Assembly (NCBI GenBank): GCA_947169975.1
Contig: CAMVRT010000005.1
Span: 1-64,000 of the forward strand
DNA length: 64,000 bases
Direction of reading: 5' to 3'
DNA from: an uncultured Oscillospiraceae bacterium
Lineage (GTDB): Bacteria; Bacillota; Clostridia; Oscillospirales; Oscillospiraceae
The notes beneath the pieces were generated by a model, which was given only the letters and a program-made list of their open reading frames with translations, was not told the DNA's origin and made no database searches. Numbering within the stretch: position 1 is the first letter of the stretch; every line of letters begins with the position of its first letter. This document shows, in pieces, positions 4,399-18,352 of this stretch. The translations under genes were made by a program, and so were the position numbers.

Positions 4399-4430
4399 AA
4401 GCTGAACACACAGAAGCGTCCCCTGTATTC
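4353..4430. repeat. REP/BIME-like inverted pair overlapping a gene end
   Basis: The direct unit at about 4353-4380 and the inverted unit at 4404-4430 are again about 23 bases apart. The first unit supplies the last codons and stop region of the 3739 gene. Partial units (GAACACAG) also occur near 945-958 and 4965-4993. Confidence 0.7.
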
Positions 4431-4516
4431 CTCAAGTTCTTTATGGTCTCAAGAATTTGAAAGTGTTTGCATTAGATGGGATGTAAATTGAGATTATTAG
4501 TTGGAGGAAGACGCAA

Positions 4517-5014: not shown

Positions 5015-5170
5015 AGCGAATATCATGAGCATTCATAGTGGTGATAGGACAATTATGGATTTTGCAGAGACATCGGAAAAGATGGACAACGCATAAATTG
5101 TTTTGGGGTGTGATTATATTACGGCACTCGGGCGGAATTAGGTGAGGAGTTGAAACAGAAATATTGAAAA

Positions 5171-5187
5171 TTACATATAATATGTAA
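5171..5187. repeat. 17-base AT palindrome
   Basis: TTACATAT-A-ATATGTAA is a perfect palindrome in the non-coding stretch 5015-5260 just outside the left attachment site. It could be a binding site. I see nothing else in this stretch. Confidence 0.4.
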
Positions 5188-5260
5188 AGTAAAATGTTCT
5201 GTAATTTCTCATAATTTTACAGATTCTGCAACTTCCTGGCTGAATAATGGCATATCCCAG

Positions 5261-5309
5261 AATGGCATTCAAGAGGTCAGCGGTTCGATCCCGCTTATCT
5301 CCACCAACT
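5261..5309 (+). repeat. left attachment site (3' part of tRNA-Ala GGC)
   Basis: The sequence starts inside the anticodon arm (loop ATGGCAT, anticodon GGC) and runs through the variable region, T-arm, acceptor strand and encoded CCA. The acceptor strand has T at position 70, matching the G3:U70 identity pair of tRNA-Ala. No 5' half lies upstream, so this is not an intact tRNA gene. Confidence 0.8.
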
Positions 5310-5312
5310 TTT

Positions 5313-5347
5313 GAGACGGAAACATGATCGTTTCCGTCTCTCTTTTT
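5313..5347 (+). terminator. terminator after left tRNA tail
   Basis: An 11-bp perfect stem (GAGACGGAAAC, 5313-5323 with 5330-5340) is followed by TCTTTTTG. It sits directly after the CCA of the left att copy, as expected if the element carries its own tRNA 3' end with a terminator. Confidence 0.75.
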
Positions 5348-5405
5348 GCTTTTTTCATAACTTTTTGTGTATAATGTGCTTGCTTGCACCTTTTGGGGTA
5401 AAACG

Positions 5406-5430
5406 AAAAACCCACACAAAAACCCACACG
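5406..5430 (+). repeat. integrase arm-type sites, left pair
   Basis: Two adjacent copies of AAAAACCCACAC lie about 100 bases inside the left att core. The same motif occurs three times about 130-175 bases inside the right core. Short direct repeats at both inner ends are the expected arm-type sites for a lambda-type integrase. Confidence 0.65.
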
Positions 5431-5454
5431 GGGGTAGAAAAACGGTAGAAAATG

Positions 5455-5481
5455 AGGCCGGACAGAGGTGATCTGCCCGGC
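5455..5481. terminator. hairpin terminator after the integrase gene
   Basis: GGCCGG..CCGGCC with an inner CAGA/TCTG pairing lies 7 bases past the integrase stop. The T-tract is better on the + strand (CCTTTCTTT) than on the integrase strand, so it may serve both directions. Confidence 0.6.
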
Positions 5482-5487
5482 CTTTCT

Positions 5488-6747
5488 TTATGCCTGTTTG
5501 ACTTCATCGGAGGACTTTTTCTTCAGCGCATCGCGGAAGATGTTGCCTGCCCGGCGGATGCTATCCTGGTCAGCGTGGGTATACATCTTCAGTGTGATCC
5601 CTTTGTTGGCGTGACCCAGCTTCTCGCTGACGGAGGCGATGTCCGCACCGTTGGTAATGGCGATGGAGGCGAAGGTGTGGCGCAGCTTGTGGGGGTGGAA
5701 GTCCTCGATACCGTACCGCTTGGCAAACTGCTTGAAGTACCGGGTTGGAGAGGAGGGATGCATCGGGTCAGTTGAGCCGCGCTGTGTAAAGACGAAGGTG
5801 GACAGGGCAGAGGAGGCCTGTTCCAGTCGAAGCTGCTTCAGGAGATCCATCACCTCCGGACTCACGTCAATGGTGCGGATTGATTTCGGCGTTTTCGGCG
5901 TGTCTGTGTAGACGCCCTTCCCGCCGGTCTTTTCCGGTGTGTAGAGAAGGTTGGTATCCAGGGTGATTGCTCCCGCCTTGAAATCAATGGCTTTCCAGCG
6001 GAGTCCGCAGACCTCACCCCGCCGACACCCGGTATCCACAAGCAGCATGACCAGTGCGCGCCACTTCAGGGGCTCGTGTTCGAGACAGGACAGAATGTAT
6101 TGCATTTCCTCCACGGTGAAGGTAGGCAGGTCATTGTCTGCTCGAACCTCGGATTTGGGGCGTCGGGGCTTCTTCACCTTGCGCATGGGATCGTCGGGAA
6201 TCATCCCGGTGTCCTCGGCTTCAGCGAAGAGCTGGCACAGGGGAACATAGATGGAGTTGATCGTGGAGGCAGAATATCCTGCGTTCTGCTTTTCCAGAAG
6301 GAGCGCCTCCAGATCGGCGCGGGTGATGTCGGTGAGCCTGCGGTCGCCCAAAGCAGAGTAGACGTGCTTTTTCAGTGCGTTCATGTAGAAGGCACGCGTG
6401 GACTCCGCAATGGCTTTCTTGCCGATCACACCGGCCATCTTCCCCGGCATGAGGATCTTCTCGCAGTACTGCTTCAGCGTGAGGATGCGTGCCTCCTCGG
6501 CGGCGCGTTCCGCAGCGGCTCTCGCTTCTGCGGCCTTACGCTCCTTCAGCGATGTGAACTCGCCGCTCTTGCAGCGCCGCTCAAAGTCGGCGGAGACCTT
6601 TGCCAGCTCACGCTGGATTGCCCGCTCGCTCCAACCGTCCGGTACAGGCCAGCGCATCGTCAGCTCCGGAGCGTCGCGCTTGACCCGGCACCGGATTTCG
6701 TAGAACGCCTGACCGTCCTTTGTAGTCCTCTTTCGTGTGGAAGCCAT
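5488..6747 (-). CDS. int: tyrosine-recombinase integrase
   Basis: This 419-residue site-specific recombinase has an N-terminal arm-binding region, a charged helical linker (about 60-90), a SAM-like core-binding domain (about 90-180) and the catalytic domain. Visible catalytic residues are R242 (TGCRRGE), K288 region, H353 and R356 (HKLRH), H379 (GHAN) and the nucleophile Y389 (MYTH). It lies beside the left att site, as usual for tRNA-targeting elements. It should integrate the element into tRNA-Ala and excise it with a directionality factor. Its ATG directly abuts the repressor stop, so the two are probably co-transcribed from the leftward switch promoter. Confidence 0.95.
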   Translation of the reverse strand: MASTRKRTTKDGQAFYEIRCRVKRDAPELTMRWPVPDGWSERAIQRELAKVSADFERRCKSGEFTSLKERKAAEARAAAERAAEEARILTLKQYCEKILMPGKMAGVIGKKAIAESTRAFYMNALKKHVYSALGDRRLTDITRADLEALLLEKQNAGYSASTINSIYVPLCQLFAEAEDTGMIPDDPMRKVKKPRRPKSEVRADNDLPTFTVEEMQYILSCLEHEPLKWRALVMLLVDTGCRRGEVCGLRWKAIDFKAGAITLDTNLLYTPEKTGGKGVYTDTPKTPKSIRTIDVSPEVMDLLKQLRLEQASSALSTFVFTQRGSTDPMHPSSPTRYFKQFAKRYGIEDFHPHKLRHTFASIAITNGADIASVSEKLGHANKGITLKMYTHADQDSIRRAGNIFRDALKKKSSDEVKQA

Positions 6748-7428
6748 TTATTCGCCCTCCTTCGACTGCTGCTCTTTCATCCAATCCACCAAACCTTCGG
6801 CAGCTTCTCCCAAGAAGCGAATTGCCTTCGCATATTCGGAGTCAATGACATCTCGGGTAGCTGCAACTCGGAAATACCCATTTGATCCGCTCCGAATAAT
6901 ACTGTCCGCTTCCATGGCAACCGCGTACTTTTTGTTGAGCTCTTCAAAACTCATATCGTCATAGTCGCTGGGAGCAGTTGCTTTATCCGCTGCATATGCC
7001 CGGACCGCGTTCATCCCACACCAGAAACGCATATCGCGGAACAAATGGCTGAATACAGAAGCAAAAGAGGGAAGATCTGGCCGGTCTGGGAATTGATTCA
7101 TTCGCAGAAATGCAGTGATAGCCTTCTCCGATAAACCGGTGTACTCAGATGCAGAACGGAGACTTGCGTCGGGTGACATGATCCTTGTACGACCGAGGAG
7201 GTAATCCACAGAGACGTTGAAAAAGTCTGCGATTTTTACGAGTGTCTCCCAGTCAGGGCTTGACGAGCCGTCCGAGTAATACCCAACCGCTTGACGCGTT
7301 TTTCCTATGGCTTTTCCGAGTTCAGATTGCGTAACCGAAGGGACACGATTTTCCATAAGTGTGCGGAGGGTGCGGGGAAAGTCGGAGTTGTACGCAGCTA
7401 CGGTGGGTGCGTTTTTCTTGCGCGCCAT
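6748..7428 (-). CDS. XRE/cI-like repressor of the element
   Basis: This 226-residue protein has a helix-turn-helix of the XRE type at about residues 30-78 ('QSELGKAIGKTRQAVGYYSDGSSSPDWETLVKIADFFNVSVDYLLG'). An unrecognised C-terminal region of about 150 residues follows. The ribosome-binding site AAGGAGG precedes the ATG. It is divergent from the excisionase-like gene across a switch whose two promoters share overlapping -10 boxes, the position of Stl/cI-type master repressors. It probably holds the replication genes and its own synthesis in check. The inducer is not evident from sequence. Confidence 0.85.
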   Translation of the reverse strand: MARKKNAPTVAAYNSDFPRTLRTLMENRVPSVTQSELGKAIGKTRQAVGYYSDGSSSPDWETLVKIADFFNVSVDYLLGRTRIMSPDASLRSASEYTGLSEKAITAFLRMNQFPDRPDLPSFASVFSHLFRDMRFWCGMNAVRAYAADKATAPSDYDDMSFEELNKKYAVAMEADSIIRSGSNGYFRVAATRDVIDSEYAKAIRFLGEAAEGLVDWMKEQQSKEGE

Positions 7429-7489
7429 TGTTTCAGACCTCCTTGATGTCGTTAACTGTTGCGTTTGGTATTGTGGTGGTTATTTTTAG

Positions 7490-7518
7490 TTGCGAGGGTT
7501 ACGTCCATTTGCTATAAT
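7490..7518 (+). promoter_or_regulatory. rightward switch promoter
   Basis: TTGCGA (7490-7495), a 17-base spacer and TATAAT (7513-7518) lead rightward to the excisionase-like and primase genes. The -35 lies in an inverted repeat (TTTTAG-TTGCGA against TCGCAA-CA-CTAAAA) that also contains the -35 of the opposing promoter, a likely operator. Confidence 0.8.
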
Positions 7519-7542
7519 ATCACAAGAAGCAAGAAATCGCAA
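7514..7542 (-). promoter_or_regulatory. leftward switch promoter (repressor-integrase)
   Basis: On the minus strand TTGCGA (7542-7537), a 17-base spacer and TATTAT (7519-7514) lead to the repressor. The two -10 boxes overlap by five bases, so polymerase can occupy only one at a time. The arrangement is nearly mirror-symmetric. Confidence 0.8.
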
Positions 7543-7568
7543 CACTAAAATGTAAGGAGCGTGAAATA

Positions 7569-7790
7569 ATGAGAGGTTACCAAGTACAGCGGGTGACTGC
7601 GGAAGATGCTGCCAGACCGTTCCTCAAGATCCAAGACGCCGTGGCGGTGACGGGGCTGAGCGCCTACTTCCTCCGGCGGGGGTGTCGGGACGGCTCGGTA
7701 CCCTGCGTCCTGTCCGGCAAGACGTACTACATTAATATCCCGGCGCTGCTGAAGAAGCTCGGGGCGACGGAGAACAGGAAGGAGAAATGA
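7569..7790 (+). CDS. excisionase-like helix-turn-helix protein
   Basis: This 73-residue protein has a winged-helix/MerR-like excisionase pattern: 'LKIQDAVAVTGLSAYFLRRGCRDGSVPCVLSGKTYYINIPALLKKL'. Such proteins bind DNA near att sites and favour excision, or act as early activators. It is the first gene of the rightward operon, 44 bases after the predicted start point, with AAGGAG 9 bases before ATG. Its stop overlaps the next start (ATGA). Confidence 0.75.
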   Translation: MRGYQVQRVTAEDAARPFLKIQDAVAVTGLSAYFLRRGCRDGSVPCVLSGKTYYINIPALLKKLGATENRKEK

Positions 7791-8092
7791 AAATGTACTA
7801 CACCAAACCGAGGAGAACACATTGGTCGGAGAACTGGATCCCGCTGGCATCGCTGAGAGTGACCCGAGGATGGCTGCCGGAGATCGGGTACTGCCCCACG
7901 GAGAAGTCGGCTTATAAATGGTGTGTCCAATTTGGCGGAAACGGGCACTACTTCAGATCCGCCGAGGGCGCCGTGGCGTATGCCCAGGGCCGTGGATGGT
8001 TAGCCAGTACCCTGGACGCAGAGCGGCTGGTGGACGATCTGGAGGCCGAATGCAAGGCGTGCGACGAGGAGGCCGCTGCCGATGGCGTATGA
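7787..8092 (+). CDS. small hypothetical protein of the replication operon
   Basis: The 101-residue protein has an aromatic, basic N-terminal half and an acidic C-terminal helix (ERLVDDLEAECKACDEEAA). It overlaps the preceding gene by 4 bases and the primase gene by 11, which points to translational coupling and a role with replication. The family is not recognised. Confidence 0.65.
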   Translation: MKMYYTKPRRTHWSENWIPLASLRVTRGWLPEIGYCPTEKSAYKWCVQFGGNGHYFRSAEGAVAYAQGRGWLASTLDAERLVDDLEAECKACDEEAAADGV

Positions 8093-10508
8093 CCATATTC
8101 CACAGGACCTCCGGGACACAGCCCGCTGGTGCTGTTGGAGATATGAACAGCGGGACGGTCAGGAGACGAAAATCCCCTACAACCCCCGTACCGGGGCAAA
8201 AGCGCGGCCGAACAACAGGAACACCTTCAGCAGTTTCCGGGCGGCCGTTGATGCCCTGCAGCGCAGGCCGGACAAGTACGACGGCATCGGCCTGGGACTG
8301 TTCGGTGATCTTGCGGGTATCGACATCGACCACTGTGTCAGCGAGGAGACGGGTGAACTGAAGCCGCTCGCGCAGGAGATCATCGAGAAGATGGGCAGTT
8401 ACACAGAGTGGTCCCCTTCCGGGGAAGGCATCCATATCTACTGCCGAGCACCCGGCCTTCGTCCAGACAAGGAACGCTACTACACAAAGCGGAGGGACCT
8501 GGAGATCTATGTGGCCGGAAGCACGAACCGCTATCTCACGGTGACCGGTGACGCCATCAACCAAGAGAGCCTGAACGAACGGTCGGCGGAGCTGGCTGAG
8601 GTGTTGGAGCGCTACATGCTTAAAAAGGACAAGCCGACAGTGGCACAGAGCAACGTGGTCACGAGAAGCAGCAACAGCACGTCGGACGACCCTCTCGCGG
8701 CGGCTATGGATGATGCAGAACTCATCGACCGGATGCTTCGCGCCAAGAACGGAGAGAAAATCCGGCGACTCTGGGAGGGCGATGCCTCCGATTACCTCAA
8801 GGATAACGGCGACCCGGACAATTCTGGGGCAGACCAGGCCCTCTGCAACCGCCTCGCATTCTGGACGCGGAAACACCCGGAGCAGATGGATAGGCTGTTC
8901 CGGCAGTCAGGCCTCATGAGGGATAAGTGGGACGAGCGGCGTGGTGCGGCAACCTACGGCGCCATCACCGTTCAGAAGGCTATCTCCGAATGCACGACCG
9001 TGTGGACGCCCGGATACCGCGCGGTCGAGCCCGGCGGGCAACAGGCGGCGCTGGGCTTCCTGAAGGCGTCCGATGTGGCCCACAGCACCCGCTATACCCA
9101 CGACGACGTGGGCGCCGGATACCTGCTGGCTGACTACCTGAAGTCCTTCGCCCGGTACGTACCGGAGAAAAAGGGGTGGCGCGTTTACGACGGCTTGTGC
9201 TGGAGAACCGACACCGGCGGGAAGACCATCGAGGCGGCGGCAAAGGATATGAGCCGTGCGCTGGCCGCCTACGCCTCCACCCTTGACGACAAGGACATGG
9301 CGGAATATCTCTCCTGGGCAGGGCGGTGGTCCAAGGCGACCAACCGTAAGACGTACATCTACGAGGCGACGTCCGTCTGGCCGGTATCGGAGAGCTGCTT
9401 TGACCGGGACCCCTGGCTATTGAACCTTAACAACGGAACACTGAACCTCAAGACGATGGAGCTGCGGGACCATGACCCAGACGATCTGATCACCCAGCTT
9501 GCACCTGTGGACTACGATCCGGCGGCTACCTGCCCCCGTTGGGACAGTTTTGTGCGGGAGACCATGGAGCCCGGAGACACGGAATGCCCCGGCGACAAGG
9601 ACACGGTTTTGACGGAAAAGGCCGCCTTTCTCCAGACCTACCTGGGGTACTGCCTGTCAGGAGACACCAGCGCGGAGGCCTTCCTGATCCTCTACGGAGC
9701 GACCAGCAGGAACGGAAAGAGCGTGTGTGTGGAGACGGTGCAGTCCATCCTCGGGAGCTACAGCCGAACGATGAACGCTGGCACCCTGATGGCGGCAAAG
9801 TTCCGCGACGGCAGTTCCCCCTCGGAGGATATTGCCCGTCTCGCCGGAGTGAGGATGGTATCTGTGGGTGAGATCCAGCAGGGTAGCAGGCTGGACGCAA
9901 GCAGGATCAAGACCCTGACCGGCGGCGACACGGTGACAGCCCGCTTTCTGGGTGAGAACTCCTTTGAATTTACACCCCGGTTCAAGCTGCTGCTGCACAC
10001 GAACCACCTGCCCCAGTGCAGTGACCTATCTGTGTTTGACAGTGGCAGAGCGCTGGTGTTGCCCTTCAGCCGCCATTTTGAGGAAGAGGAGCAGGACAAA
10101 GGACTGAAGCGCCTTTTCCGTGAGCCGGAGAATCAGAGCGCTATCCTGAACTGGCTGATTGCGGGGCTCCGGGAATACGTGTCTCACGGGCTTCACGCTC
10201 CGGCGGCGGTAAAGGCTGCGACGGCGGAATACCGGCGGGACTCTGACAAGGTGGCCCGGTTTATGGAAGAACGCCTGCGGCAGGGACCTGAACAGGCGGT
10301 GCGTTCATCGCTGGTATACGCCGCATACAAGCTCTGGTGTAAAGCAAATGGCCAGTACGTGGAGAGCAGTCGGCAGTTTCGTCAGAAGCTGCTAAGCACG
10401 GGCGTTAGAATTGAGAAGCGGCGTCCAGCGCCCACAGAGTGCGCCACTGATATGCTGATAGGTTATGCTCTTGTGGGGGACATGGACGACTTGCCGACCG
10501 CAGGATAA
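8082..10508 (+). CDS. P4-family primase-helicase (D5-like)
   Basis: This 808-residue replication protein has an N-terminal primase-polymerase-like domain (GIDIDHC near residue 80, 'WSPSGEGIHIY' near 110, 'NRYLTVTG' near 155). A D5-type region follows, then a superfamily 3 helicase with Walker A GATSRNGKS at about 539-547, a 'VGEIQQ' acidic motif and 'LLLHTNHLPQ' (sensor 1-like). A winged-helix-like tail ends the protein. It would prime and unwind the element's own origin, which probably lies just downstream (10532-10619). The presence of one protein doing both jobs is typical of P4-like satellites and PICIs. Length is usual for the family. Confidence 0.9.
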   Translation: MAYDHIPQDLRDTARWCCWRYEQRDGQETKIPYNPRTGAKARPNNRNTFSSFRAAVDALQRRPDKYDGIGLGLFGDLAGIDIDHCVSEETGELKPLAQEIIEKMGSYTEWSPSGEGIHIYCRAPGLRPDKERYYTKRRDLEIYVAGSTNRYLTVTGDAINQESLNERSAELAEVLERYMLKKDKPTVAQSNVVTRSSNSTSDDPLAAAMDDAELIDRMLRAKNGEKIRRLWEGDASDYLKDNGDPDNSGADQALCNRLAFWTRKHPEQMDRLFRQSGLMRDKWDERRGAATYGAITVQKAISECTTVWTPGYRAVEPGGQQAALGFLKASDVAHSTRYTHDDVGAGYLLADYLKSFARYVPEKKGWRVYDGLCWRTDTGGKTIEAAAKDMSRALAAYASTLDDKDMAEYLSWAGRWSKATNRKTYIYEATSVWPVSESCFDRDPWLLNLNNGTLNLKTMELRDHDPDDLITQLAPVDYDPAATCPRWDSFVRETMEPGDTECPGDKDTVLTEKAAFLQTYLGYCLSGDTSAEAFLILYGATSRNGKSVCVETVQSILGSYSRTMNAGTLMAAKFRDGSSPSEDIARLAGVRMVSVGEIQQGSRLDASRIKTLTGGDTVTARFLGENSFEFTPRFKLLLHTNHLPQCSDLSVFDSGRALVLPFSRHFEEEEQDKGLKRLFREPENQSAILNWLIAGLREYVSHGLHAPAAVKAATAEYRRDSDKVARFMEERLRQGPEQAVRSSLVYAAYKLWCKANGQYVESSRQFRQKLLSTGVRIEKRRPAPTECATDMLIGYALVGDMDDLPTAG

Positions 10509-10531
10509 GATCCACAGGAGTATGAAAGCGG

Positions 10532-10619
10532 TCTGTTGCGTCTGTTGCGTGATTACCGGGTCGTTCTTATGAGAAGACAAATATTTCACCGACCTATAAA
10601 TCAAGCAACAGACGCAACA
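10532..10619. other. candidate replication origin with iterons
   Basis: Two tandem copies of CTGTTGCGT (10532-10549) face two inverted copies (10604-10619), giving a perfect 16-bp inverted repeat (CTGTTGCGTCTGTTGC) separated by 56 mostly AT-rich bases. It starts 24 bases after the primase-helicase stop, the usual place of the origin in P4-like satellites and PICIs. A very long hairpin role is the alternative. Confidence 0.6.
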
Positions 10620-10675
10620 GGACCCAGATAAACAGCGGTCGCCCCCTCTGTGGGCGACGGAGAGGAGAGATGTGA

Positions 10676-11110
10676 ATGAGCGTTGAAAACCTGATCCAGT
10701 ACAACCCGGAGCGTTCAACACCGGAACAGCGCCGCGAGAATGCGAGAAAGGCCGGACTGGCCTCCGGCGTGGCGAGGCAGAAGCGGAAGAAGCTGCGGGA
10801 CGTGCTGGCCAACATGATGACCTTCCATGTGACGGAGGAGGAGCTCCGTGTGGCTTTGGAGACCGCCGGATACGAACCGACCCACGAGAACGCCATCGGT
10901 CTGGCGGCGATTATCAAGGCGTCCCACGGTGATATTGAGGCCGCCCGGTTCGTGAGAGACACGCTGGGAGAGAAGCCCACGGAGAGCTTCAACCTGGCGA
11001 CCACCGACCGTCCGATCCGGAGCCTGGATCTGAGCGGATACACCGATGCGGATCTGGAGGCTATCGCCGACGGACTGGATGACCCGGCGGAGCTTCCCCC
11101 TGCACGATGA
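10676..11110 (+). CDS. phage-type small protein, possible small-terminase-like
   Basis: The 144-residue protein begins 'NARKAGLASGVARQKRKKLRDVLANMM', continues with a helical segment and 'GDIEAARFVRDTLGEKPTE', a pattern I know from prophage genes near the packaging module. In a satellite it could redirect helper packaging or bind DNA, but that is inference. A GGAGAGGAG ribosome-binding site precedes the ATG. It follows the candidate origin and overlaps the next, broken gene by ATGA. Confidence 0.6.
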   Translation: MSVENLIQYNPERSTPEQRRENARKAGLASGVARQKRKKLRDVLANMMTFHVTEEELRVALETAGYEPTHENAIGLAAIIKASHGDIEAARFVRDTLGEKPTESFNLATTDRPIRSLDLSGYTDADLEAIADGLDDPAELPPAR

Positions 11111-11259
11111 CAAACGAGGAGCTGACCGTCGCGATCAAAGGCAGCGCTGATGACCTGATCCAGTGCATGTTTCTGTACAGGCCGTCGGAAACCGTTTGCC
11201 GGAATAAAACAGAAACGGCCGGGACAACATGTCCCGGCCATCCATTTGGCTTGCGTTGA
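11107..11259 (+). pseudogene. short 50-codon ORF, probably a truncated gene at the CRISPR module edge
   Basis: The ORF overlaps the preceding stop (ATGA), so it was translationally coupled. It begins convincingly (MTNEELTVAIKGSADDLIQCMFLYRP) but then runs through the inverted terminator of the CRISPR array (11217-11239) and stops. The last 20 or so residues are therefore encoded by the hairpin. The natural reading is that insertion of the CRISPR-cas9 module cut the 3' end of an older gene. Confidence 0.5.
11203..11239 (-). terminator. terminator of the CRISPR array transcript
   Basis: A 10-bp perfect stem GGCCGGGACA with a three-base loop (11217-11239) is followed on the minus strand by GTTTCTGTTTTATT. 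It lies 38 bases beyond the last, degenerate repeat in the predicted direction of array transcription. Confidence 0.75.
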
Positions 11260-11276
11260 ACATATCTGGTTTATTT

Positions 11277-11707
11277 CTCTGAGACCCATACGATATTACA
11301 CTGCTCTCAAACGTCATTGCCGGTCTTCCGGGACTTGCCCTCGTTTGAGACCCCTACGAAATTACACTGCTCTCAAACGTTACGCAAAAGCCTACCTATC
11401 TCGATTATGTTTGAGACCCCTACGAAATTACACTGCTCTCAAACATAAAGATCCGGGACAGCGTCCAGGCGCCTGTTTGAGACCCCTACGAAAATACACT
11501 GCTCTCAAACCATCTCGCTAATCATGCGCTGGATGCTCTGGTTTGAGACCCCTACGAAATTACACTGCTCTCAAACTCCGGGATATCGGCCTGCGGATGC
11601 TGACGGTTTGAGACCCCTACGAAAATACACTGCTCTCAAACCACCCTTATACACCACTTTCTCGAAATTCGGTTTGAGACCCCTACGAAAATACACTGCT
11701 CTCAAAC
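11277..11707 (-). CRISPR. type II CRISPR array, 7 repeats and 6 spacers
   Basis: The 36-base repeats begin GTTTGAGACCCC and end CTGCTCTCAAAC on the + strand. Positions are 11277-11312 (degenerate), 11343-11378, 11409-11444, 11475-11510, 11541-11576, 11606-11641 and 11672-11707. Spacers are 30 bases, one is 29. Repeats 2, 3 and 5 read GAAATTACAC, while repeats 4, 6 and 7 read GAAAATACAC. The crRNA strand must be minus, because only the minus-strand repeat (GTTTGAGAGCAG..) pairs with the tracrRNA. The degenerate repeat at the low-coordinate end and the promoter at the other end agree with this. The array lies downstream of cas9, in the same direction. Confidence 0.97.
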
Positions 11708-11769
11708 CTCAAATCCCAAACCCACGTTCGGGAGTGAGCGGGCTGCACCGCCGAGATCTGACCGCAGAA

Positions 11770-11781
11770 GGGGTCTCAAAC
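11770..11781. repeat. orphan half-repeat in the CRISPR leader
   Basis: GGGGTCTCAAAC on the + strand equals one end of the repeat in inverted orientation. In the leader transcript it reads GUUUGAGACCCC, able to pair with the 3' end of a repeat in the same RNA. It may be a relic of a former repeat or a regulatory element. Confidence 0.5.
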
Positions 11782-11871
11782 CATTCAGCTGATCTCACAG
11801 AGGGATTCGTCAACGATATACCTCTGCTCACCGGAGAGCCGCGTGTGCTCGCAACTCTCTACCATTAATAC

Positions 11872-11900
11872 ATTATACCGGTGCCGGATCACGGAATCAA
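11872..11900 (-). promoter_or_regulatory. promoter of the CRISPR array
   Basis: On the minus strand TTGATT (11900-11895), 17 bases and TATAAT (11877-11872) lie between the cas9 stop and the first repeat. The predicted leader RNA is about 158 bases. The 11708-11942 stretch holds only this promoter and the half-repeat. Confidence 0.7.
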
Positions 11901-11942
11901 GGAACAATCCCGCCTGATTGGCAACGACCACGGTCCGCCAGC

Positions 11943-14900
11943 TCATATCAATTCCAGCAGATTCCCGGAACGCTTCTCCCACAGACCGGAGGGTGAAGCG
12001 TCAATAAGCTGTACGTCTGAATAGTTTTTCTTCCAGTTGGAAACCGCGGCGCTAAAGCTGATGGTCGCTGCAGCCTTTCCTGCTCCGCCAATTGCCGTCA
12101 GGTCACAGCCGCCGGCAACCCTGCCAAAGACCTGATGGATGTTGAGCAGTGCCTTCGCCTGCTCCCAGGGAGACAATGCGCGGAATTTTTCCCGCCCCTT
12201 GCCCAGCAGTTCCGCGGGGGCGTTGATACGTTTCCGGTAGATAGAGTTCTGCAGCTTATCACAGTAAAGGTCAAACAGTTCCAAATTCTTTTCGGCAGAA
12301 ACCTTGTCGTATACCTCATCGAAGACATATTTCGGATTCCTGCCCATCTTTTCCGTCAGCATTTCCAACTTCTTCAAATAAAACTGCCAGAACGGATCCG
12401 CAGAAAACTGCATCATCGGCTGTGCAATCAGGCATCTGCCGCCGCTGGAACTGCCTGCAATGCACACCCGGAAACCATCCAAAGACAAAACGGTGTTGAT
12501 CTTCCAGGGACGCATTCCCAAGGGGAATGACACCTCATCCACGGATTTGTTCAAAATCTTGCTCAACCTGTTGTGCGCATATTCCTGCGCAAAAGCCGGA
12601 TCCTCAAGGAAGCGCTTCCCGTGAAGCAGTTCAACAGACATGACGAATACTTCGGACTTTTTTCCGGCCTTGTAGCGTACGGGAATAAAGAACATCACGC
12701 CGGCTTTGTTGTAACCGCCGTATTTTTCCGTCGGAAGATTCTTCTTGAGGGGAACGAGTCCCTCCGCTGCCGCCAAGGGCATCTGATCGAACAGACCGCC
12801 TTTTTTGAAGAAGCTGTATTTTGTGAAGTGAGCTGTGTTTTTGACGGCCGTCTTTTTCACCTGCGCCAGCATTTTTTCTCCATCCCAGACAGTTTTTCCG
12901 CCACACACCACCGGGTGAGTAAAGACCGTCCGGGTCTTGATGCTGTAGCGTGTATGGACGTTGAAGTTTTTCGTGAACTTCATGTTATATACGTTGCCGG
13001 TCACGATATTCAGATAGGCATCCACAGCATGGTGGAGATCATTGAAAGTCCTCGATTTCAGCAGATCAAATTCCTGCCGGAATTCTGAGGCCAGCTGCGC
13101 CTTGCAGTAGACGATCTCCGCATTGGGGAAGTGCTCCTTTAACAGTGTCGCTACCGCTTTGGTGGATTGGGAGGTCTCAGTCAGCTGCCGATTGATAAAC
13201 GCATATTTTTCTTCATCCGAAAAGGGTGTTGCACGAGTCAGACGCTTGTATTTCTCTTCGCTGAGCAAACCCGCTTCCTTCAGGAACCCCCAAAACCCCG
13301 TCATTTCATGACGGATCGCACTTGCAATGGGATAGCTGTCGCTCTTTGCTCCGTTTTCCTCCGACAGGACAAGCACCTTATTATTGATAATACTGTCATC
13401 CTTTACGAAGGCCTGCGGATAAATATGGTCGACATCATATTCTTTCGTGTTCAGTTTTTCCAGAGAAATCGGCTTGCCGCTATACATGGATCGGCCCAGT
13501 TGGAGATAATATAGGAACAGCTTGTCGCTCTGCAGCCTGCTGTCTGCACTGTCTCCCATCGCCTCCAACTGACTCCGGAGACGTGGAACGTCCTCATCCC
13601 GGCAACGCTCATACAGTTCCGTCAACTGCTGCTTGCGGGACTTGGTACGCTTGCCCTTTTGGTCCTCTCTTGCGCCTCGGGTCATTTCCACAAAAAACTT
13701 TTGCGGGTCGCCAAATGCTTTGGTGACGTCCTTCACAATATCAAGCGTTCTGAAAACCGAGCGCTTTACGGCACCGGAGAGATACATTTCATCCAAACGG
13801 TCAGACAGACTCTGCGGGTGCCGGGCATAGTACTCCCGCTGAAGTGTTTCGATCTCTGCGGCAAATGTAAACCGATCCGAAAGCAGCTCCATCAGGTTGC
13901 AGCCGGTGCTCCACAAGGCCTCGATGATCGTAAATGCCTCGCCGGTGTCCTTCGCCGCGCCAACAAGTTCAGAAAGAAACGTACGAGATAGACGACCGAA
14001 ATCCTTCCATCGCTGGCTGCACAGGAACCTACGATCCGTCTCTTCCAGATTGGGATATTCCTTTGCAAGCCACTTGGCGAGGCGGGTCTTATCCTCAGCA
14101 TAGGATGCCCGCTCGACAATACGCTCGGCGTCATCCTCTGTGAGTACTCCGGATTCCAACAGCCGCCGGAACGTGATTTGCGGTGTAAGATTCGACTTGA
14201 TTTCGTCGTCGATTCCTGTGACGCTACCCTCTTCGCCCCTATCTATGATTCCCTCCGAGAGCAGGTATTCCAACAGTTTTTTCTTGGAAACTTTCTTCTT
14301 GCACAGAAACAGTTCTCTGTAAATACGTTGCTTCAATTCGACCGGAATCCGTTCACCATTGATACGAAGGTTGTTGATTTCGTTGAGTACGGTGAATTTG
14401 TGATAGAGCAAGGAATCTTTAGGAAGTACCGGCTCACCGGGGAGATACGTGCATTTTCCTGTCAGGTTTCTGATAAAGGCATCTTCACTGGCGTCCAGAT
14501 CTACAATCTTTTCAAAATTCCACGGGAGTATTTTGCCGGGCTTGCGAACGACCCACGCCCGCTCAGATGCCGGGTTCAGCGGTCCGACAAAATAGGGGAT
14601 ACGGAACAGGAAAACAGACATCACCTTGTCGGCAACGCTTAATCCATCCCCATCTGTCTGTGTCAAAAAGGGAAGGTATGTCTGTGCATTATCCAAAATT
14701 TTCTGGAGTTCATACCAGTAAAGCTGATGAGGAATAACACGGTTATCTGTGTCTCGCTGTTTGGGCAAAAAAGTCCGCAGTTTCAGCCTGCTGAGCATAT
14801 CCTCAAACTGTGCGGCATCAGCAGCATCCGGTGTGATATCTTTGACTGCAGCAAGAACATATTTGGAAAAGTCCTCCTTGTTCTTCCACTTGAGTGTGGA

Positions 14901-16004
14901 TGTGTTCCCATCCTCCGTATGGTATGAATAAGCGGTATAGTTGTCCAGATTCAATGCTCGGAACATATCATCATACTTCTCCGGGCAATACCGTCGTATC
15001 ACTTTTTTCAAAAAGGCCAAATCTGTCCTGTGCTGGTTGTAGAGCTCCACCTTTGCCTCGGAGATCGTTGTGGCATCTCCGATGGCATCGACCAGAACCG
15101 ACCAGTCATACACACCGCGAAGAGCAGCAATCAACTCGAAATCATCTCCGATATTCGAAGCAATCTCTCCGAGCTTTTCATCGTCCATATCCAGTGAGAC
15201 GGAGCCAAAATCGGCATAGTCATCCCGATCAAACAAATCCTTCAACTTGCATGTCCCGCCAGAGAGCAGTTTGATGATGGCGGCCTGGCTGAAGGGGAAC
15301 TTCTCAGTGCGAGTTTTGGGTGCCTGTTTTCCATTAAGCAGTACGGCTGCCAACTCTTTTTCCTTAGCCGTAACGCCGGTTCGTTTGCGCAGAACCGAAC
15401 CGATTTGGTTTACGTCTGCGTCACCCCAGGGATACTCGCAGTCGTTCTGTTCAAAAAAACTGCGCAACAGTGCGTATGTACCGGAAAAGTCCTTCAGCTC
15501 GGAGAGATTATTCCTGTCAATCTTGCTGAGGAAATGACCACGGTGTGAAACCAACCATGCACAAGCGAGGTAAACAAGCCGGATATCATGCGGGTCCTTG
15601 CTGTTCATCAAGTCGCAAATGAGATGATGTATCGTTGGATACTGGGCATAATAATCTTTGTCTGTATAATCAGCGTCATTGAACAGAGGATACCGATCAC
15701 CTGTCTCGTCACGGTACAGAGCGCTCTCCCGAATTCGAATATAAAACCGGGAATCCTTTTTACTGATTTCCGAAGCGAACAGTTCCTGGATCAATGCAAC
15801 ACGCTGCTGTCGACGGTCTAAACGCCTTCTTGCGGTACGAAAGGCTCTACGCTCCGAACTTAGAGATGCCTCATCAAAAACGGTGACGCCCCATGCCGGC
15901 TCCCCACGGAATTTCAATAGATGGTATTGTTCGTTTGTAACGGCATAACCTACTGAATCCGTTCCTATATCCAATCCGAGATAGTAGCTTTTTTGCGTGC
16001 TCAT
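11943..16004 (-). CDS. cas9: Cas9 RNA-guided endonuclease (type II)
   Basis: The protein is 1353 residues, the size of the larger Firmicute (II-A-like) Cas9s. Order: RuvC-I with D12 (LGLDIGTDSVGYAV), an Arg-rich bridge helix (about 50-75), REC lobe, RuvC-II with E773 (FFVEMTRG), HNH with D859-H860 (DVDHIYPQ) and N875 (INNKVLVL), RuvC-III with H992 and D995 (HHAVDAYLN), and a PAM-interacting C-terminal domain. All nuclease residues are intact. Start ATG 16004 is chosen because GAGAGGAG precedes it and it begins right before RuvC-I. An in-frame extension upstream reads through the tracrRNA locus and is not coding. No cas1, cas2, csn2 or cas4 lies nearby. Expected to cut DNA matching the array's spacers, guided by crRNA:tracrRNA. 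Confidence 0.98.
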   Translation of the reverse strand: MSTQKSYYLGLDIGTDSVGYAVTNEQYHLLKFRGEPAWGVTVFDEASLSSERRAFRTARRRLDRRQQRVALIQELFASEISKKDSRFYIRIRESALYRDETGDRYPLFNDADYTDKDYYAQYPTIHHLICDLMNSKDPHDIRLVYLACAWLVSHRGHFLSKIDRNNLSELKDFSGTYALLRSFFEQNDCEYPWGDADVNQIGSVLRKRTGVTAKEKELAAVLLNGKQAPKTRTEKFPFSQAAIIKLLSGGTCKLKDLFDRDDYADFGSVSLDMDDEKLGEIASNIGDDFELIAALRGVYDWSVLVDAIGDATTISEAKVELYNQHRTDLAFLKKVIRRYCPEKYDDMFRALNLDNYTAYSYHTEDGNTSTLKWKNKEDFSKYVLAAVKDITPDAADAAQFEDMLSRLKLRTFLPKQRDTDNRVIPHQLYWYELQKILDNAQTYLPFLTQTDGDGLSVADKVMSVFLFRIPYFVGPLNPASERAWVVRKPGKILPWNFEKIVDLDASEDAFIRNLTGKCTYLPGEPVLPKDSLLYHKFTVLNEINNLRINGERIPVELKQRIYRELFLCKKKVSKKKLLEYLLSEGIIDRGEEGSVTGIDDEIKSNLTPQITFRRLLESGVLTEDDAERIVERASYAEDKTRLAKWLAKEYPNLEETDRRFLCSQRWKDFGRLSRTFLSELVGAAKDTGEAFTIIEALWSTGCNLMELLSDRFTFAAEIETLQREYYARHPQSLSDRLDEMYLSGAVKRSVFRTLDIVKDVTKAFGDPQKFFVEMTRGAREDQKGKRTKSRKQQLTELYERCRDEDVPRLRSQLEAMGDSADSRLQSDKLFLYYLQLGRSMYSGKPISLEKLNTKEYDVDHIYPQAFVKDDSIINNKVLVLSEENGAKSDSYPIASAIRHEMTGFWGFLKEAGLLSEEKYKRLTRATPFSDEEKYAFINRQLTETSQSTKAVATLLKEHFPNAEIVYCKAQLASEFRQEFDLLKSRTFNDLHHAVDAYLNIVTGNVYNMKFTKNFNVHTRYSIKTRTVFTHPVVCGGKTVWDGEKMLAQVKKTAVKNTAHFTKYSFFKKGGLFDQMPLAAAEGLVPLKKNLPTEKYGGYNKAGVMFFIPVRYKAGKKSEVFVMSVELLHGKRFLEDPAFAQEYAHNRLSKILNKSVDEVSFPLGMRPWKINTVLSLDGFRVCIAGSSSGGRCLIAQPMMQFSADPFWQFYLKKLEMLTEKMGRNPKYVFDEVYDKVSAEKNLELFDLYCDKLQNSIYRKRINAPAELLGKGREKFRALSPWEQAKALLNIHQVFGRVAGGCDLTAIGGAGKAAATISFSAAVSNWKKNYSDVQLIDASPSGLWEKRSGNLLELI

Positions 16005-16005
16005 A

Positions 16006-16034
16006 TTGACATCTCCTCTCTGATGCTGTATCAT
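16006..16034 (+). promoter_or_regulatory. tracrRNA promoter overlapping the cas9 start
   Basis: TTGACA (16006-16011), 17 bases and TATCAT (16029-16034) point rightward, giving a start near 16041, just before the anti-repeat. The promoter overlaps the cas9 ribosome-binding site on the other strand and begins 1 base from the cas9 start codon. Confidence 0.8.
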
Positions 16035-16040
16035 AACGAA

Positions 16041-16164
16041 GTAGTTTTGTAGACCCCTACGAAATTGCGCTGCGAGTTCAAATAAAAGAATTCTCAAATC
16101 GTTGGCTTGACCAACTGCACAGTGTGTGCATGAAGGGCTTCTTAGGTGAAGCCCTTTCTTTTTT
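16041..16164 (+). ncRNA. tracrRNA
   Basis: The anti-repeat (about 16051-16083) pairs with the minus-strand repeat. The lower stem is GUUUGA with UCAAAU, a bulge of GA opposite GAGU follows as in type II-A guides, and the upper stem GCAGUGUAAUUUCG pairs fully with CGAAAUUGCGCUGC using two G:U pairs. It continues with a nexus-like hairpin (UUGG-CUUGA-CCAA, 16102-16114), a 5-bp hairpin (UGCAC/GUGCA, 16116-16130) and a 9-bp terminator stem (AAGGGCTTC/GAAGCCCTT) with a T-run ending near 16164. It is divergent from cas9, about 37 bases from its start codon. Confidence 0.92.
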
Positions 16165-16204
16165 GCATTCTGGTCCTTTCCCGTCAAATATGACTATTTT
16201 GTTT

Positions 16205-16233
16205 ATTATAGCAAAGCAATCGCGAAATATCAA
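16205..16233 (-). promoter_or_regulatory. cas9 promoter
   Basis: On the minus strand TTGATA (16233-16228), 17 bases and TATAAT (16210-16205) predict a start near 16198. The cas9 mRNA would then have a leader of about 190 bases that is fully antisense to tracrRNA. The 12 bases TTTGCTATAATA around the -10 are identical to those of the rightward switch promoter. Confidence 0.75.
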
Positions 16234-16429
16234 TTATCACAAACCCTTCTGTTTCCAGATTCTGTTGTAGTTGTAGAATTCTTGTTGCTCTAATCATTCA
16301 TATCGGGTTGCGCGTTCGCGCTCTTATATGGTTATGCTTCTTAGATGTGATTCCGCCTCACTACCTTAGCAGTAACTCAACATTCCTACATTTGCAGTTC
16401 ATTTTTCAAAAATTGAAATAACACTGTGG

Positions 16430-16480
16430 TGCCCCCCGGGGTGCCCGCCGCGCGACGGACCCCACCCCCTACAATAGTAT
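16430..16480. other. GC-rich inverted-repeat patch between cas9 promoter and zinc-ribbon gene
   Basis: In the otherwise AT-rich gap 16234-16535 a short GC-rich patch contains GGTGCCCCCCGGGGTGCC and further C-runs. It may be a hairpin or a binding site. I see no gene in the gap. Confidence 0.3.
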
Positions 16481-16535
16481 CAGCCCCGAAATTTTGGAAT
16501 TTTGAAAATGTTTTAGCATACTTGTTATACCGCCG

Positions 16536-16564
16536 TTGCTTTTGCTTACCGACTCTGCTATACT
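16536..16564 (+). promoter_or_regulatory. promoter of the zinc-ribbon gene
   Basis: TTGCTT (16536-16541), 17 bases and TATACT (16559-16564) lie just upstream of AAAAGGAGGAG and the ATG at 16587, giving a very short leader. Confidence 0.7.
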
Positions 16565-16586
16565 GCAACAAAAAGGAGGAGATCCT

Positions 16587-16859
16587 ATGGCATACCCACT
16601 TGAGCCCGGCGGCGCGGTTCCGCACAAGTTTATTGTACAGGATCATGGCACTTGCGAAAACTGTCACGAGAAGGATGTAGATCTCTGCTGTATACCCGGA
16701 TACATGTGGCTGTGTGAGACTTGCTTTGGCGACCTCGACTGGTGCGATATCTGTGGAGAAGCGTTTGTGGATGGCGCGGAAGAATTCATCGAAACCTCTG
16801 ATGGGCGATATGTCTGCCCTTACTGCGCAGAGGCGTATGGCCTCGGGGAAGAAGAGTAA
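16587..16859 (+). CDS. small Cys-rich zinc-ribbon protein
   Basis: The 90-residue acidic protein has Cys pairs CENC, CC, CETC, CDIC and CPYC, enough for two zinc ribbons, and no other domain. A strong promoter, an ideal AAAGGAGGAG site and a strong terminator make it an independent, well-expressed cargo gene between the tracrRNA and the element's right end. Role unknown. It could bind nucleic acid or protein; proximity to cas9 makes a regulator or inhibitor conceivable but nothing in the sequence proves it. Confidence 0.7.
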   Translation: MAYPLEPGGAVPHKFIVQDHGTCENCHEKDVDLCCIPGYMWLCETCFGDLDWCDICGEAFVDGAEEFIETSDGRYVCPYCAEAYGLGEEE

Positions 16860-16872
16860 CACAAGAAATTAA

Positions 16873-16922
16873 AAACAGGGCCACCCTTTTGAAGTGTTAA
16901 CTTCAATCGGGTGGCCCTGTTT
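16873..16922. terminator. bidirectional terminator
   Basis: AAACAGGGCCACCC pairs with GGGTGGCCCTGTTT, with a second inner stem GAAGT/ACTTC. It ends the zinc-ribbon gene and any leftward transcript from the gene fragments to its right. Confidence 0.8.
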
Positions 16923-16929
16923 CACGGTA

Positions 16930-17175
16930 TTAGTCTTTCGGCGTGGATTTGCGATTCTTCTTCAGCCATGCCATGAACCATTCCTTGGCATCCTCGTACG
17001 CGGCCGTCCGGGCCTCCTCGCATGCATCGAAGAAGGCCCGCATCACGGGATCGTCGTTGGGGTTGTAGTCGGTCTGGTTACCTTCCGCGTCGGGGCGGAG
17101 GGTCGGGGAGTATCGATAGTCACACACCCGCCCAAAAGGCTTGCCATACGTGTTGACAAAACGGTCTGCGTTGTT
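16930..17175 (-). pseudogene. 3' remnant of an unrecognised gene
   Basis: The frame is open from 17175 to the stop at 16930 and reads like protein (RFVNTYGKPFGRVCDYRYSPTLRPDAEGNQTDYNPNDDPVMRAFF..WFMAWLKKN), but it has no ATG. A GTG at 17127 lacks a good ribosome-binding site. Best explained as the C-terminal end of a gene whose 5' part was lost. Confidence 0.4.
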
Positions 17176-17215
17176 CTACCTATGAAAGAGTAGCTTGCAC
17201 CCGTCCCTTGGGCAT

Positions 17216-17611
17216 TCAGAGGCCCAGGGGTTCGCGCGGAAGGATTGTTGAATCCCAAAGCGCGTAGGAGGTGCGGGGCTCTTTTTTTGTCTGCGTAGAC
17301 GACGTTTCGCTCCGATACGTCCCACGGGTGGTTCCCTTGACAATCTCCAGCAGGTCTGCTACACTCATAGTAGAGGTGTCCATCAAAGGGTCAATGGCTG
17401 CCGAGGTTTCCTCGGTGTAGCTACCCTGGTGGTGGGCCTCTACTTTTTTTGCCTGGATTCCCTTGAGCACGTAGTAGAGAGTGGGGAGATTATCTATAGT
17501 GACTTCTCCGGCATCTATGTTATACTGTTCCACAGAAGATGGTTCGGTCCCGAGTATCGCCGGTGCGTTGTCAGGAGCACTCCGCTCCTGCGTAACCGTG
17601 TCGAGGGGCAC
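17216..17611 (-). CDS. doubtful ORF, possibly a gene remnant
   Basis: The 131-codon frame (GTG start at 17611) has protein-like composition in its middle ('VTIDNLPTLYYVLKGIQAKKVEAHHQG', 'SVADLLEIVKG'). The frame stays open upstream to about 17650 without an ATG, and the ribosome-binding site is poor. It may be a second decayed gene. No family recognised. Confidence 0.3.
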   Translation of the reverse strand: MPLDTVTQERSAPDNAPAILGTEPSSVEQYNIDAGEVTIDNLPTLYYVLKGIQAKKVEAHHQGSYTEETSAAIDPLMDTSTMSVADLLEIVKGTTRGTYRSETSSTQTKKEPRTSYALWDSTILPREPLGL

Positions 17612-17670
17612 CGTCTTCTTTGCTATCGGTAATCGTTGTTTTACATAGAATCAGTTAAGGAGATGCAGGG

Positions 17671-17976
17671 ATGGAGGAGAAGAAACACGACAAGGTACTC
17701 ACGTGGGTCATAGCAGGCATAGTCATTGTGATACTGTTCGGACTGATCAGCGCTGGCCACGCTGCTGAAGAGCGTGCGCGGACGGCTGGCTATTGGTCGG
17801 GGCACGAAGACGGGTATTCCGAGGGGTACAATGTCGCTAGTCAAGAGTATCAAGACGAAATCGAGGATCTTATGCGTGAGTCAGAACGTTCCAGCGAGTC
17901 TGCATATTCAGATGGCTACAATGAGGGTTATCAGCAGGGATATGAAGACGCAGAGAACGACTATGCAGGGGGTTAA
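17671..17976 (+). CDS. small single-pass membrane protein with Gly-Tyr repeats
   Basis: The 101-residue protein has a cytoplasmic basic start, one transmembrane helix (about 10-30, WVIAGIVIVILFGLISAG) and an acidic tail with repeated D-G-Y-x-E-G-Y units (GYSEGYN, DGYNEGYQQGYEDAEN). AAGGAG lies 8 bases before the ATG. It is the last gene before the element's right end. Function unknown. Confidence 0.65.
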   Translation: MEEKKHDKVLTWVIAGIVIVILFGLISAGHAAEERARTAGYWSGHEDGYSEGYNVASQEYQDEIEDLMRESERSSESAYSDGYNEGYQQGYEDAENDYAGG

Positions 17977-18006
17977 AGATAGTTGATGCCAGTCTCCGGC
18001 TGATAT

Positions 18007-18051
18007 AAAAACCCCACACAAAAACCCACACCGACATGAAAAAACCCACAC
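18007..18051 (+). repeat. integrase arm-type sites, right triplet
   Basis: Three copies of AAAAACCCACAC (18007-18019 with one extra C, 18020-18031, 18039-18051) match the pair at the left end. The rest of 17977-18181 shows no gene. Confidence 0.65.
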
Positions 18052-18181
18052 CGAGAGTTCACGATAGATGACAACAAGCTACGACAAGTAAAACCAGGAA
18101 TCCGTTGGTATCAGAGGGAAAGCACGATTATAATAGAGTGCAACAGAGTGGGCTGTAGTAGGCTGGTTTTGACGAAAAATT

Positions 18182-18230
18182 AGAATGGCATTCAAGAGGT
18201 CAGCGGTTCGATCCCTCTTATCTCCACCAA
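18182..18230 (+). repeat. right attachment site (3' part of tRNA-Ala GGC)
   Basis: Identical to the left copy except for one base in the T-arm (ccT against ccG). It carries the anticodon loop, T-arm, acceptor strand and CCA, then a terminator and chromosomal genes. No 5' half is present. Confidence 0.8.
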
Positions 18231-18232
18231 AA

Positions 18233-18265
18233 AGAAGGACAGGCAAAAGCCTGTCCTTCTTTTTG
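18233..18265 (+). terminator. tRNA-Ala terminator
   Basis: AAGGACAGGC-aaaa-GCCTGTCCTT is followed by CTTTTTGG. The stem can extend outward to 24 perfect base pairs (18221-18244 with 18249-18272), taking in the acceptor end and CCA of the tRNA remnant. Confidence 0.85.
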
Positions 18266-18275
18266 GTGGAGACCG

Positions 18276-18352
18276 GTGCGGGAGAATCAGTCCGGTTCGA
18301 ACGTGCGGCCACAGGCCGCACGGCATGGCGGCGCAGCCGCCATATCCCGCAC
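18276..18352. repeat. three-helix palindromic element
   Basis: GTGCGGGA (18276-18283) pairs with TCCCGCAC (18345-18352) and encloses two perfect 8-bp hairpins: GTGCGGCC-aca-GGCCGCAC (18303-18321) and ATGGCGGC-gca-GCCGCCAT (18325-18343). The compact cruciform design suggests a dispersed structured repeat rather than a gene. Confidence 0.5.

Follow-up and report, generated by a model that had tools for sequence, protein, structure and literature searches.

A 13-kb island carrying a CRISPR-Cas9 module (clustered regularly interspaced short palindromic repeats with the Cas9 nuclease) lies at 5259-18230 of the window, by which we mean the whole 64,000-nt stretch analysed here (uncultured Oscillospiraceae bacterium, assembly GCA_947169975.1, contig CAMVRT010000005.1, positions 1 to 64,000). 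The source genome is a draft of 46 contigs and 2.16 Mb, and the window is the start of its contig C5. The island is bounded by 49-bp direct repeats, identical at 48 of 49 positions. A leftward integrase and repressor are followed by a rightward excisionase-like gene, a 101-aa gene, a primase-helicase, an inverted repeat and a 144-aa gene. After the 144-aa gene come the CRISPR array, cas9, the trans-activating CRISPR RNA (tracrRNA), and four small open reading frames (ORFs). Coordinates are collected in Table 1.

Table 1. Features of the island, in order along the window (a dot marks features given without strand; G and C numbers are our handles for genomes and contigs, L numbers for loci).
Feature	Position	Strand	Observations
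Left attachment repeat, 3' half of tRNA-Ala(GGC)	5259..5307	+	48/49 direct repeat; congener G417 has the full tRNA here, then the same DNA
Candidate arm-type integrase site, left	5406..5429	.	24-nt direct repeat, 23/24 with 18008-18031
Tyrosine integrase	5488..6747	-	Pfam PF00589, 110 bits; phrog_1; 97.5% identical (361 aa) in G417, beside tRNA-Ala
Helix-turn-helix repressor	6748..7428	-	PF01381, phrog_8
Excisionase-like small gene	7569..7790	+	Divergent from integrase-repressor pair; related integrases in L266 and L265 have neighbouring genes 65% and 70% identical to it
101-aa gene	7787..8092	+	ORF between excisionase-like gene and primase
P4-type primase-helicase, 808 aa	8082..10508	+	TIGR01613, 236 bits; D5_N; phrog_1829
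Candidate replication origin, 31-nt inverted repeat with CTGTTGCGT units	10533..10620	.	Directly 3' of primase; putative origin function
TerS-position protein, 144 aa	10676..11110	+	phrog_2412, 78 bits; homologues directly before terL in phages
CRISPR array, 7 repeats (36 nt), 6 spacers (29-30 nt)	11277..11707	-	Leftward; direction from tracrRNA and degenerate terminal repeat at 11277
Spacer 5, matching phage-type C5 methyltransferase gene in congener	11577..11605	-	28/29 nt at G421:C158:27568-27595, E 2.2e-7 for that genome
Array leader, ending GGGATTTGAG at first repeat	11708..11784	-	Sequence reading
53-codon in-frame fusion, 13 codons of cas1 start and about 40 codons of csn2 end	11785..11946	-	Between cas9 and array
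Promoter-like site TTGATT-17-TATAAT reading into array	11872..11900	-	Inside csn2 remnant, 115 nt from csn2 frame end
cas9, 1353 aa from ATG at 16004	11943..16004	-	TIGR01865, 858 bits
tracrRNA with anti-repeat (at 16046) and terminator hairpin	16046..16166	+	Divergent, upstream of cas9
Zinc-ribbon-like small protein	16587..16859	+	CxxC pairs in translation; sub-threshold Pfam match
65-aa ORF	16930..17127	-	No family match in PHROGs or PADLOC
131-aa ORF	17216..17611	-	G187 relative 67% over 60 aa; no family match
101-aa ORF, hydrophobic stretch near start	17671..17976	+	Weak matches to PHROGs of unknown function
Candidate arm-type integrase site, right	18008..18031	.	24-nt direct repeat, 23/24 with 5406-5429
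Right attachment repeat	18182..18230	+	Next 120 bp on the right are homologous to DNA that directly follows an intact tRNA-Ala in G427 and G409

An original prediction, made from the letters alone, had described this segment as resembling a phage-inducible chromosomal island (PICI), and most of the anatomy that it listed was recovered. The integrase and its regulator are divergent from the excision and replication genes, with a P4-family primase and a candidate origin, the former recognised by family models and the latter by its inverted repeat. No family model matched the excisionase-like gene, which is called from its position and its kin. A P4-family primase is a feature that the island shares with P4 itself. 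The 24-nt repeats just inside the two ends fit the integrase arm sites that had been proposed, and the array, cas9 and tracrRNA were all found as announced. The absence of capsid, tail and conjugation genes also held: of 11 predicted proteins, ten were scanned with Pfam (all except the 65-aa ORF) and ten with PHROGs (all except Cas9), and none of those scanned matched a capsid, tail, portal or relaxase family. A search of the window against Rfam returned no families.

The gene for the 144-aa protein, which the prediction had left unnamed, adds to the satellite anatomy. Its family, phrog_2412, is of unknown function in the PHROGs library. Homologues were found in 15 phage records, 14 of them from Streptococcus phages, and align along most of the protein. 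Seven records were opened, one of which (MT835491) is without annotation and uninformative. In all six annotated records (EJ-1, Javan316, 420, 377, 174 and 141) the homologue lies directly 5' of terL, overlapping it in five and two bases apart in one. That place belongs to the gene for the small terminase subunit, a gene that PICIs carry and use to redirect packaging. The island thus has a putative terS homologue, with neither terL nor virion genes among its scanned proteins. The structure model of this protein was of low confidence (57.2), and that of the 131-aa ORF of very low confidence (mean predicted local distance difference test, 46.5); neither was used for a fold search.

The CRISPR cargo includes a Cas9 of type II-A lineage, with a tracrRNA and 36-nt repeats. 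RuvC and HNH motifs read as intact, both in the translation and in an alignment with a solved Cas9 that does not reach the end of the protein. The predicted duplex between the CRISPR RNA (crRNA) repeat and the tracrRNA has an energy of −50.2 kcal/mol, against −21.2 ± 3.5 for 200 shuffles. With the promoter-like site listed in Table 1, the parts needed for interference thus read as intact. At the array, the leader ends in ATTTGAG, which we take to be a type II-A leader anchor. The leader also contains, at 11771-11782, a 12-nt inverted copy of the repeat end (GGGGTCTCAAAC), and a partly similar stretch is found at the same place in congener G426. The G+C content is 0.497 in the cassette, 0.579 in the backbone and 0.595 in the chromosome; the low value of the cassette is therefore as expected of inserted cargo.

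The predicted lack of cas1, cas2 and csn2 was borne out only in part: a search of the source genome for cas1 gave no match, but the 53-codon fusion keeps the beginning of cas1 and the last part of csn2. Since none of the three is present as a whole gene, the system is a type II-A derivative and not a complete member of that type. It had been called complete, and is so for interference only.

We compared 23 Cas9 loci, those of the window, of G426 and 21 others. A full cas1 stands directly beside cas9 in 15 of the 23, and two break off before the region in question. Of the 21 loci in which this region can be seen, six have lost their adaptation genes or keep them in decayed form, namely those of the window, G426, G123, G084, G066 and G197; the csn2 end is also kept in G123 and G084. 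Besides the window and G426, four type II-A loci of the family (L061, L064, L016 and L060) have deleted or decayed adaptation genes. The nearest Cas9s other than the sister described below (L007, L008, L010 and L011) are in loci with a full cas1, and csn2 is visible in L007, L010 and L011. These three resemble the window in Cas9 (63-64% identical in the best segment) and in having a promoter-like site inside csn2, and L007 has the same repeat type; unlike the window with its fusion, they keep cas1-cas2-csn2. Six complete systems were scanned for such sites, which lie 115-127 nt before the csn2 frame end in five (L007, L010, L011, L012 and L013); in the sixth, L059, the nearest measured site is 184 nt away. 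By this comparison of loci, the module descends from a type II-A system from which cas1-cas2-csn2 were removed by deletion. The deletion spared the promoter-like site, and would thus have removed adaptation while keeping the likely start of the array transcript.

Cas9 was present in 2 of 32 genomes of the genus (searched as 10 + 22). The cassette of congener G426 is a close relative of that of the window, with 76% identity in Cas9 and 72% in DNA over 4.9 kb. It adjoins a serine-recombinase region and sugar-uptake genes (by eye), and no significant match to the integrase, primase or terS of the island was found within 34 kb. The cassette is cargo and not part of the backbone, because in G426 it also occurs with no recognisable satellite around it. 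In a tree of 14 of the 23 loci, from which a length and motif filter had removed nine, the two Cas9s pair as sisters (support 100/100). In G426, the fusion ORF has the same junction codon and aligns with that of the window without gaps, and its cas1 part is eroded. The repeats of the two arrays differ at two bases in every copy, and the tracrRNA of each lineage has the matching change. However similar the scars, none of the 42 spacer pairs are alike: the best shares 14 of 30 nt, and shuffles give a mean of 14.3 and a maximum of 18.

If the deletion is shared, then both arrays were renewed after the cassette had lost cas1. The unlike spacers, together with repeats that changed in step with the tracrRNAs, suggest renewal after the loss of adaptation, perhaps in trans. 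Acquisition in trans by the Cas1-Cas2-Csn2 of other hosts, or exchange of whole arrays, would explain the differing spacers. We put forward, tentatively, that the cassette lost adaptation once, in an ancestor shared with G426, and that both arrays were then fully renewed by Cas1-Cas2-Csn2 of other hosts acting at the intact leader. The satellite would in that case be a portable memory, updated in type II-A hosts and used in hosts without type II-A machinery. The retained Cas1-Csn2 fusion may help such renewal. Its nonsynonymous and synonymous divergence from G426 (dN 0.217, dS 1.45, little data with 53 codons) fits either selection on a small peptide or a late deletion.

A somewhat less probable history, and in our opinion a doubtful one, is that the same deletion arose twice from complete type II-A systems, with normal spacer turnover before each loss and no need for adaptation in trans. 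Adaptation deletions with other junctions do recur in the family (G123, G084 and G066), an array promoter would naturally limit the csn2-side end, and divergence that mostly arose before the deletion would explain the low dN/dS of the fusion. What speaks for a single event is the junction at the same codon in an ungapped alignment, where no long microhomology was seen by eye, together with the sister position of the two Cas9s. In addition, the erosion of the cas1 part in G426 argues that the deletion there is not recent.

The array was searched in one contiguous search against the 32 genus genomes. Spacer 5 matches a site inside a 683-aa phage-type DNA methyltransferase (phrog_116), with its single mismatch at the end distal to the protospacer-adjacent motif (PAM). 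The contig that bears it, G421:C158, also encodes a protein that contains an endolysin-type stretch; four proteins of this contig were scanned, and none was recognised as a terminase or portal. Read 3' of the protospacer, the flank is TGTAGTACC. This near-perfect match looks recent, because other genomes carry diverged versions of the site with 4-7 mismatches. Against named phages, no spacer gave a match with E below 2, and the seeds of spacers 5 and 6 found nothing in viral_contigs. No second copy of any spacer was found in the source genome at E 1, so that no self-targeting was found. The matching of six spacers to phages and other elements, proposed as a check, thus succeeded for one spacer, the remaining five being without a convincing match. 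A role of Cas9 against rival phages gains from this a phage-type gene as target, but the match does not distinguish a rival from a helper.

Could the module be a dying relic, with adaptation lost, a few old spacers and little function left? Besides the deletion itself, the failure to find cas1 in the source genome, the small number of spacers and the repeated loss or decay of adaptation at other Cas9 loci (the 6 of 21 above) point that way. Yet Cas9 is full length with intact catalytic motifs, and its dN relative to G426 is 0.168 (dS being saturated). In each lineage the tracrRNA has changed along with the repeats, the deletion left the promoter-like site in place, and one spacer still matches 28 of 29 nt in a congener. 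We therefore regard a relic as improbable.

Relatives of the backbone were found in other tRNA-bounded islands. In G410 (C152; L266 with L276), a 9-kb island at tRNA-Thr, with an 86-bp repeat (80%), has an integrase 50% and an excisionase-like gene 65% identical to those of the window, as well as a primase, a head-scaffolding gene (phrog_233) and a sigma factor; no capsid or terL was recognised in it (five proteins by PHROGs, the rest by eye). An island at tRNA-Leu in G132 (C1; L076, L277), with a 77-bp attachment repeat (98.7%), has an integrase 30% and a primase 44% identical, a second leftward gene that was not recognised as a repressor, and a small gene without family match. This island carries GajA/GajB (Gabija) and JetA-D (Wadjet), and backbones of this sort thus carry defence systems. 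Defence genes on phage satellites are well known. Kin of the integrase, repressor and primase also adjoin tRNA-Leu in G151. The primase recurs in 25 other genomes among 400 of the family, at 46% identity or less, with two short stretches that reach 50%. In viral_contigs, 44 loci have related primases (at most 34% identical along most of the protein, rising to 40% within the first 300 residues); no close relatives of Cas9 or of the integrase were found in that collection. The proposed search for the same backbone with and without cas9 therefore yielded related islands, but no close relative in which the cargo region is visible. Another primase element, in G368 (C119; L073, 458-1615), has an HK97-capsid-like gene nearby (by eye), and is perhaps a capsid-forming satellite.

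The ends of the island were compared with the 32 genus genomes, among which three congeners were informative (G427, G409 and G417). Both 49-bp repeats correspond to positions 30-76 of tRNA-Ala(GGC) with one flanking base on each side. The direct repeats of tRNA-Ala that had been predicted are thus real, but neither is a whole tRNA gene, the left one lacks its 5' half, and a tRNA search of the window found no whole tRNA. On the right, the 120 bp that follow the island (18231-18350) were scored against the DNA following the tRNA at 29 tRNA-Ala(GGC) loci of the genus. G427 and G409 scored 91 and 90, the next locus 27, and shuffles at most 24. In G427, the DNA after the intact tRNA-Ala is 84% identical over 80 bp and 97% over 35 bp, with 50-odd extra bases between; in G409, the DNA directly after it is 78% identical over 101 bp. 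Part of the match is a terminator-like hairpin. By this comparison, G427 and G409 have the unoccupied site as seen from the right, the second feature that the prediction had not named. On the left, G417 has an intact tRNA-Ala directly followed by the left end of the island, with 94% identity over 1315 bp; its cargo is not visible because the contig ends inside the integrase gene. An integrase and attachment repeats thus bound a segment that is absent in relatives, as had been asked of the repeats, but as judged from a right flank of only 120 bp and a left repeat without its 5' half.

An error of assembly or binning that joined unrelated pieces is very improbable. The genome is a draft resembling a metagenome-assembled one, and its contig C33 ends inside the tRNA repeat. 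However, homologues of the right flank adjoin tRNA-Ala in two congeners, G417 has the same left end, and G426 has a parallel cassette. The source genome has one intact tRNA-Ala, on C7, and the 5' half of a second one is what ends C33 (L006, 1-154), inside the attachment repeat. About 100 bp upstream of that half, C33 has an additional truncated copy of the tRNA 5' part, a sign of repeated integration. To the left of the left attachment repeat, window 1-5258 is low in G+C (0.452) and contains short repeated sequences as well as ORFs that by eye are immunity-like and lipoprotein-like; it probably represents a further tandem insertion at this tRNA. The same tRNA-Ala half also flanks a 33-kb prophage in G309 (C23; L224, L225), whose integrase and terS were recognised by PHROGs and the rest by eye; it is a competitor for the site or a possible helper type. 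Partial copies of the half were found in G428, G426, G422, G036 and G418.

Taken together, we consider it likely that 5259-18230 is a PICI-type phage satellite at the 3' half of tRNA-Ala(GGC), with an interference-only CRISPR cargo serving as portable immune memory. Its cargo of tracrRNA, Cas9 and short array lies to the right of the TerS-position gene and reaches towards the right end. Deletion of cas1-cas2-csn2 from the type II-A ancestor kept the likely array promoter. Cas9, guided by the crRNA:tracrRNA pair, would cut phages bearing matching DNA, which would shield satellite and lysogen alike from competitors. What the sequences show is the anatomy, the insertion site, relatives that lack the island, the descent of the module, its intact parts and one match to a phage gene; expression, cutting, benefit and mobilisation by a helper phage are what we infer from them.

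Several points weigh against this reading. The genome is a draft, and helper dependence, induction, excision, packaging and expression of the island are predictions. With the tRNA 5' half missing from its left repeat, the island is not a simple single insertion, and probably sits in tandem behind a neighbour on that side. On the right, homology to the unoccupied sites stops at about 18350, with no match found beyond. A whole tRNA-Ala beside folD in relatives was considered and set aside, as the flanks (up to 1.5 kb a side) had no tRNA at any of 11 folD loci of the genus. For both reasons, the 120 bp of homology may also represent the end of a separate insertion, and the shortness of this homology slightly lowers our confidence. 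No gene for capsid remodelling or for other interference with a helper was recognised in the family scans of the element, and four small ORFs are without assigned function. The sister cassette lies outside a recognisable satellite, no close backbone relative has a visible cargo region (primases at most 46% identical, G417 ending inside the integrase gene), and only one of six spacers has a convincing match.

The draft state of the genome, the lack of a recognised capsid-remodelling gene and of a known helper, the likely tandem neighbour on the left and the short homology of the right flank favour an ordinary integrative island or a decayed prophage, in which the integrase, repressor, primase and terS-like gene would be leftovers and Cas9 incidental cargo. 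We hold this to be unlikely. The genes from integrase to terS are full-length ORFs in satellite order, kin of its integrase or primase are found in other islands bounded by tRNAs, where no virion genes were recognised (in part by eye), and both ends of the island have counterparts in congeners.

The closest known case is CampyICE1, an integrative conjugative element of Campylobacter. It is described as a Cas9-only type II-C system on an integrated mobile element without cas1 and cas2, with few spacers that mostly match plasmids and with competing mobile elements as predicted targets (PMC8743540). The island resembles it in having Cas9 without cas1 and cas2, in its few spacers and in the kind of target predicted. 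The Cas9 of CampyICE1 is of 965 aa and there are three arrays, and adaptation in trans is raised there as a speculation (PMC8743540). The window differs by a II-A-derived Cas9 of 1353 aa, a single array, a satellite backbone, a phage-gene target and a visible deletion scar. Nor is its carrier conjugative as far as the scanned proteins tell, none of which matched a relaxase or secretion family. Like PICIs, SaPIs and StCIs as they are described, the island has integrase, excision, replication and packaging genes, no virion genes, and accessory genes in their usual place between terS and the 3' end (PMC13376191). It is unlike them in having CRISPR-Cas9 as cargo and no known helper. P4-like satellites with defence hotspots likewise combine a satellite with variable anti-phage cargo (PMC9122126); the hosts and gene order of the window differ, and its cargo is RNA-guided with a spacer memory. 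Phage-encoded CRISPR systems, such as the type I-F system of ICP1, are a further instance of a mobile element using CRISPR in inter-element conflict, but there, as a review relates, it is the phage that targets the satellite, whereas in the window the satellite carries the system (PMC11656645). MT835488 and Listeria phage LM 4-14-1 were considered as Cas9-only precedents and rejected, both keeping cas1 and cas2. In an open-access library (most subscription papers lie outside it), no title or opening of an abstract among the search results reported CRISPR-Cas9 on a phage satellite, and the word 'satellite' is absent from the main text of a 2024 review on CRISPR in mobile elements (PMC11656645).

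If functional, the module would mean that a satellite can carry sequence-specific immunity between hosts. The scar left by the deletion points to a repeated route by which a type II-A system becomes interference-only and yet keeps its likely array promoter. Of greatest interest is the question how this array, with no cas1 beside it, acquired spacers unlike those of its sister. With the same deletion scar beside wholly different spacers, the updating in trans of a cas1-less array by a resident type II system becomes directly testable.

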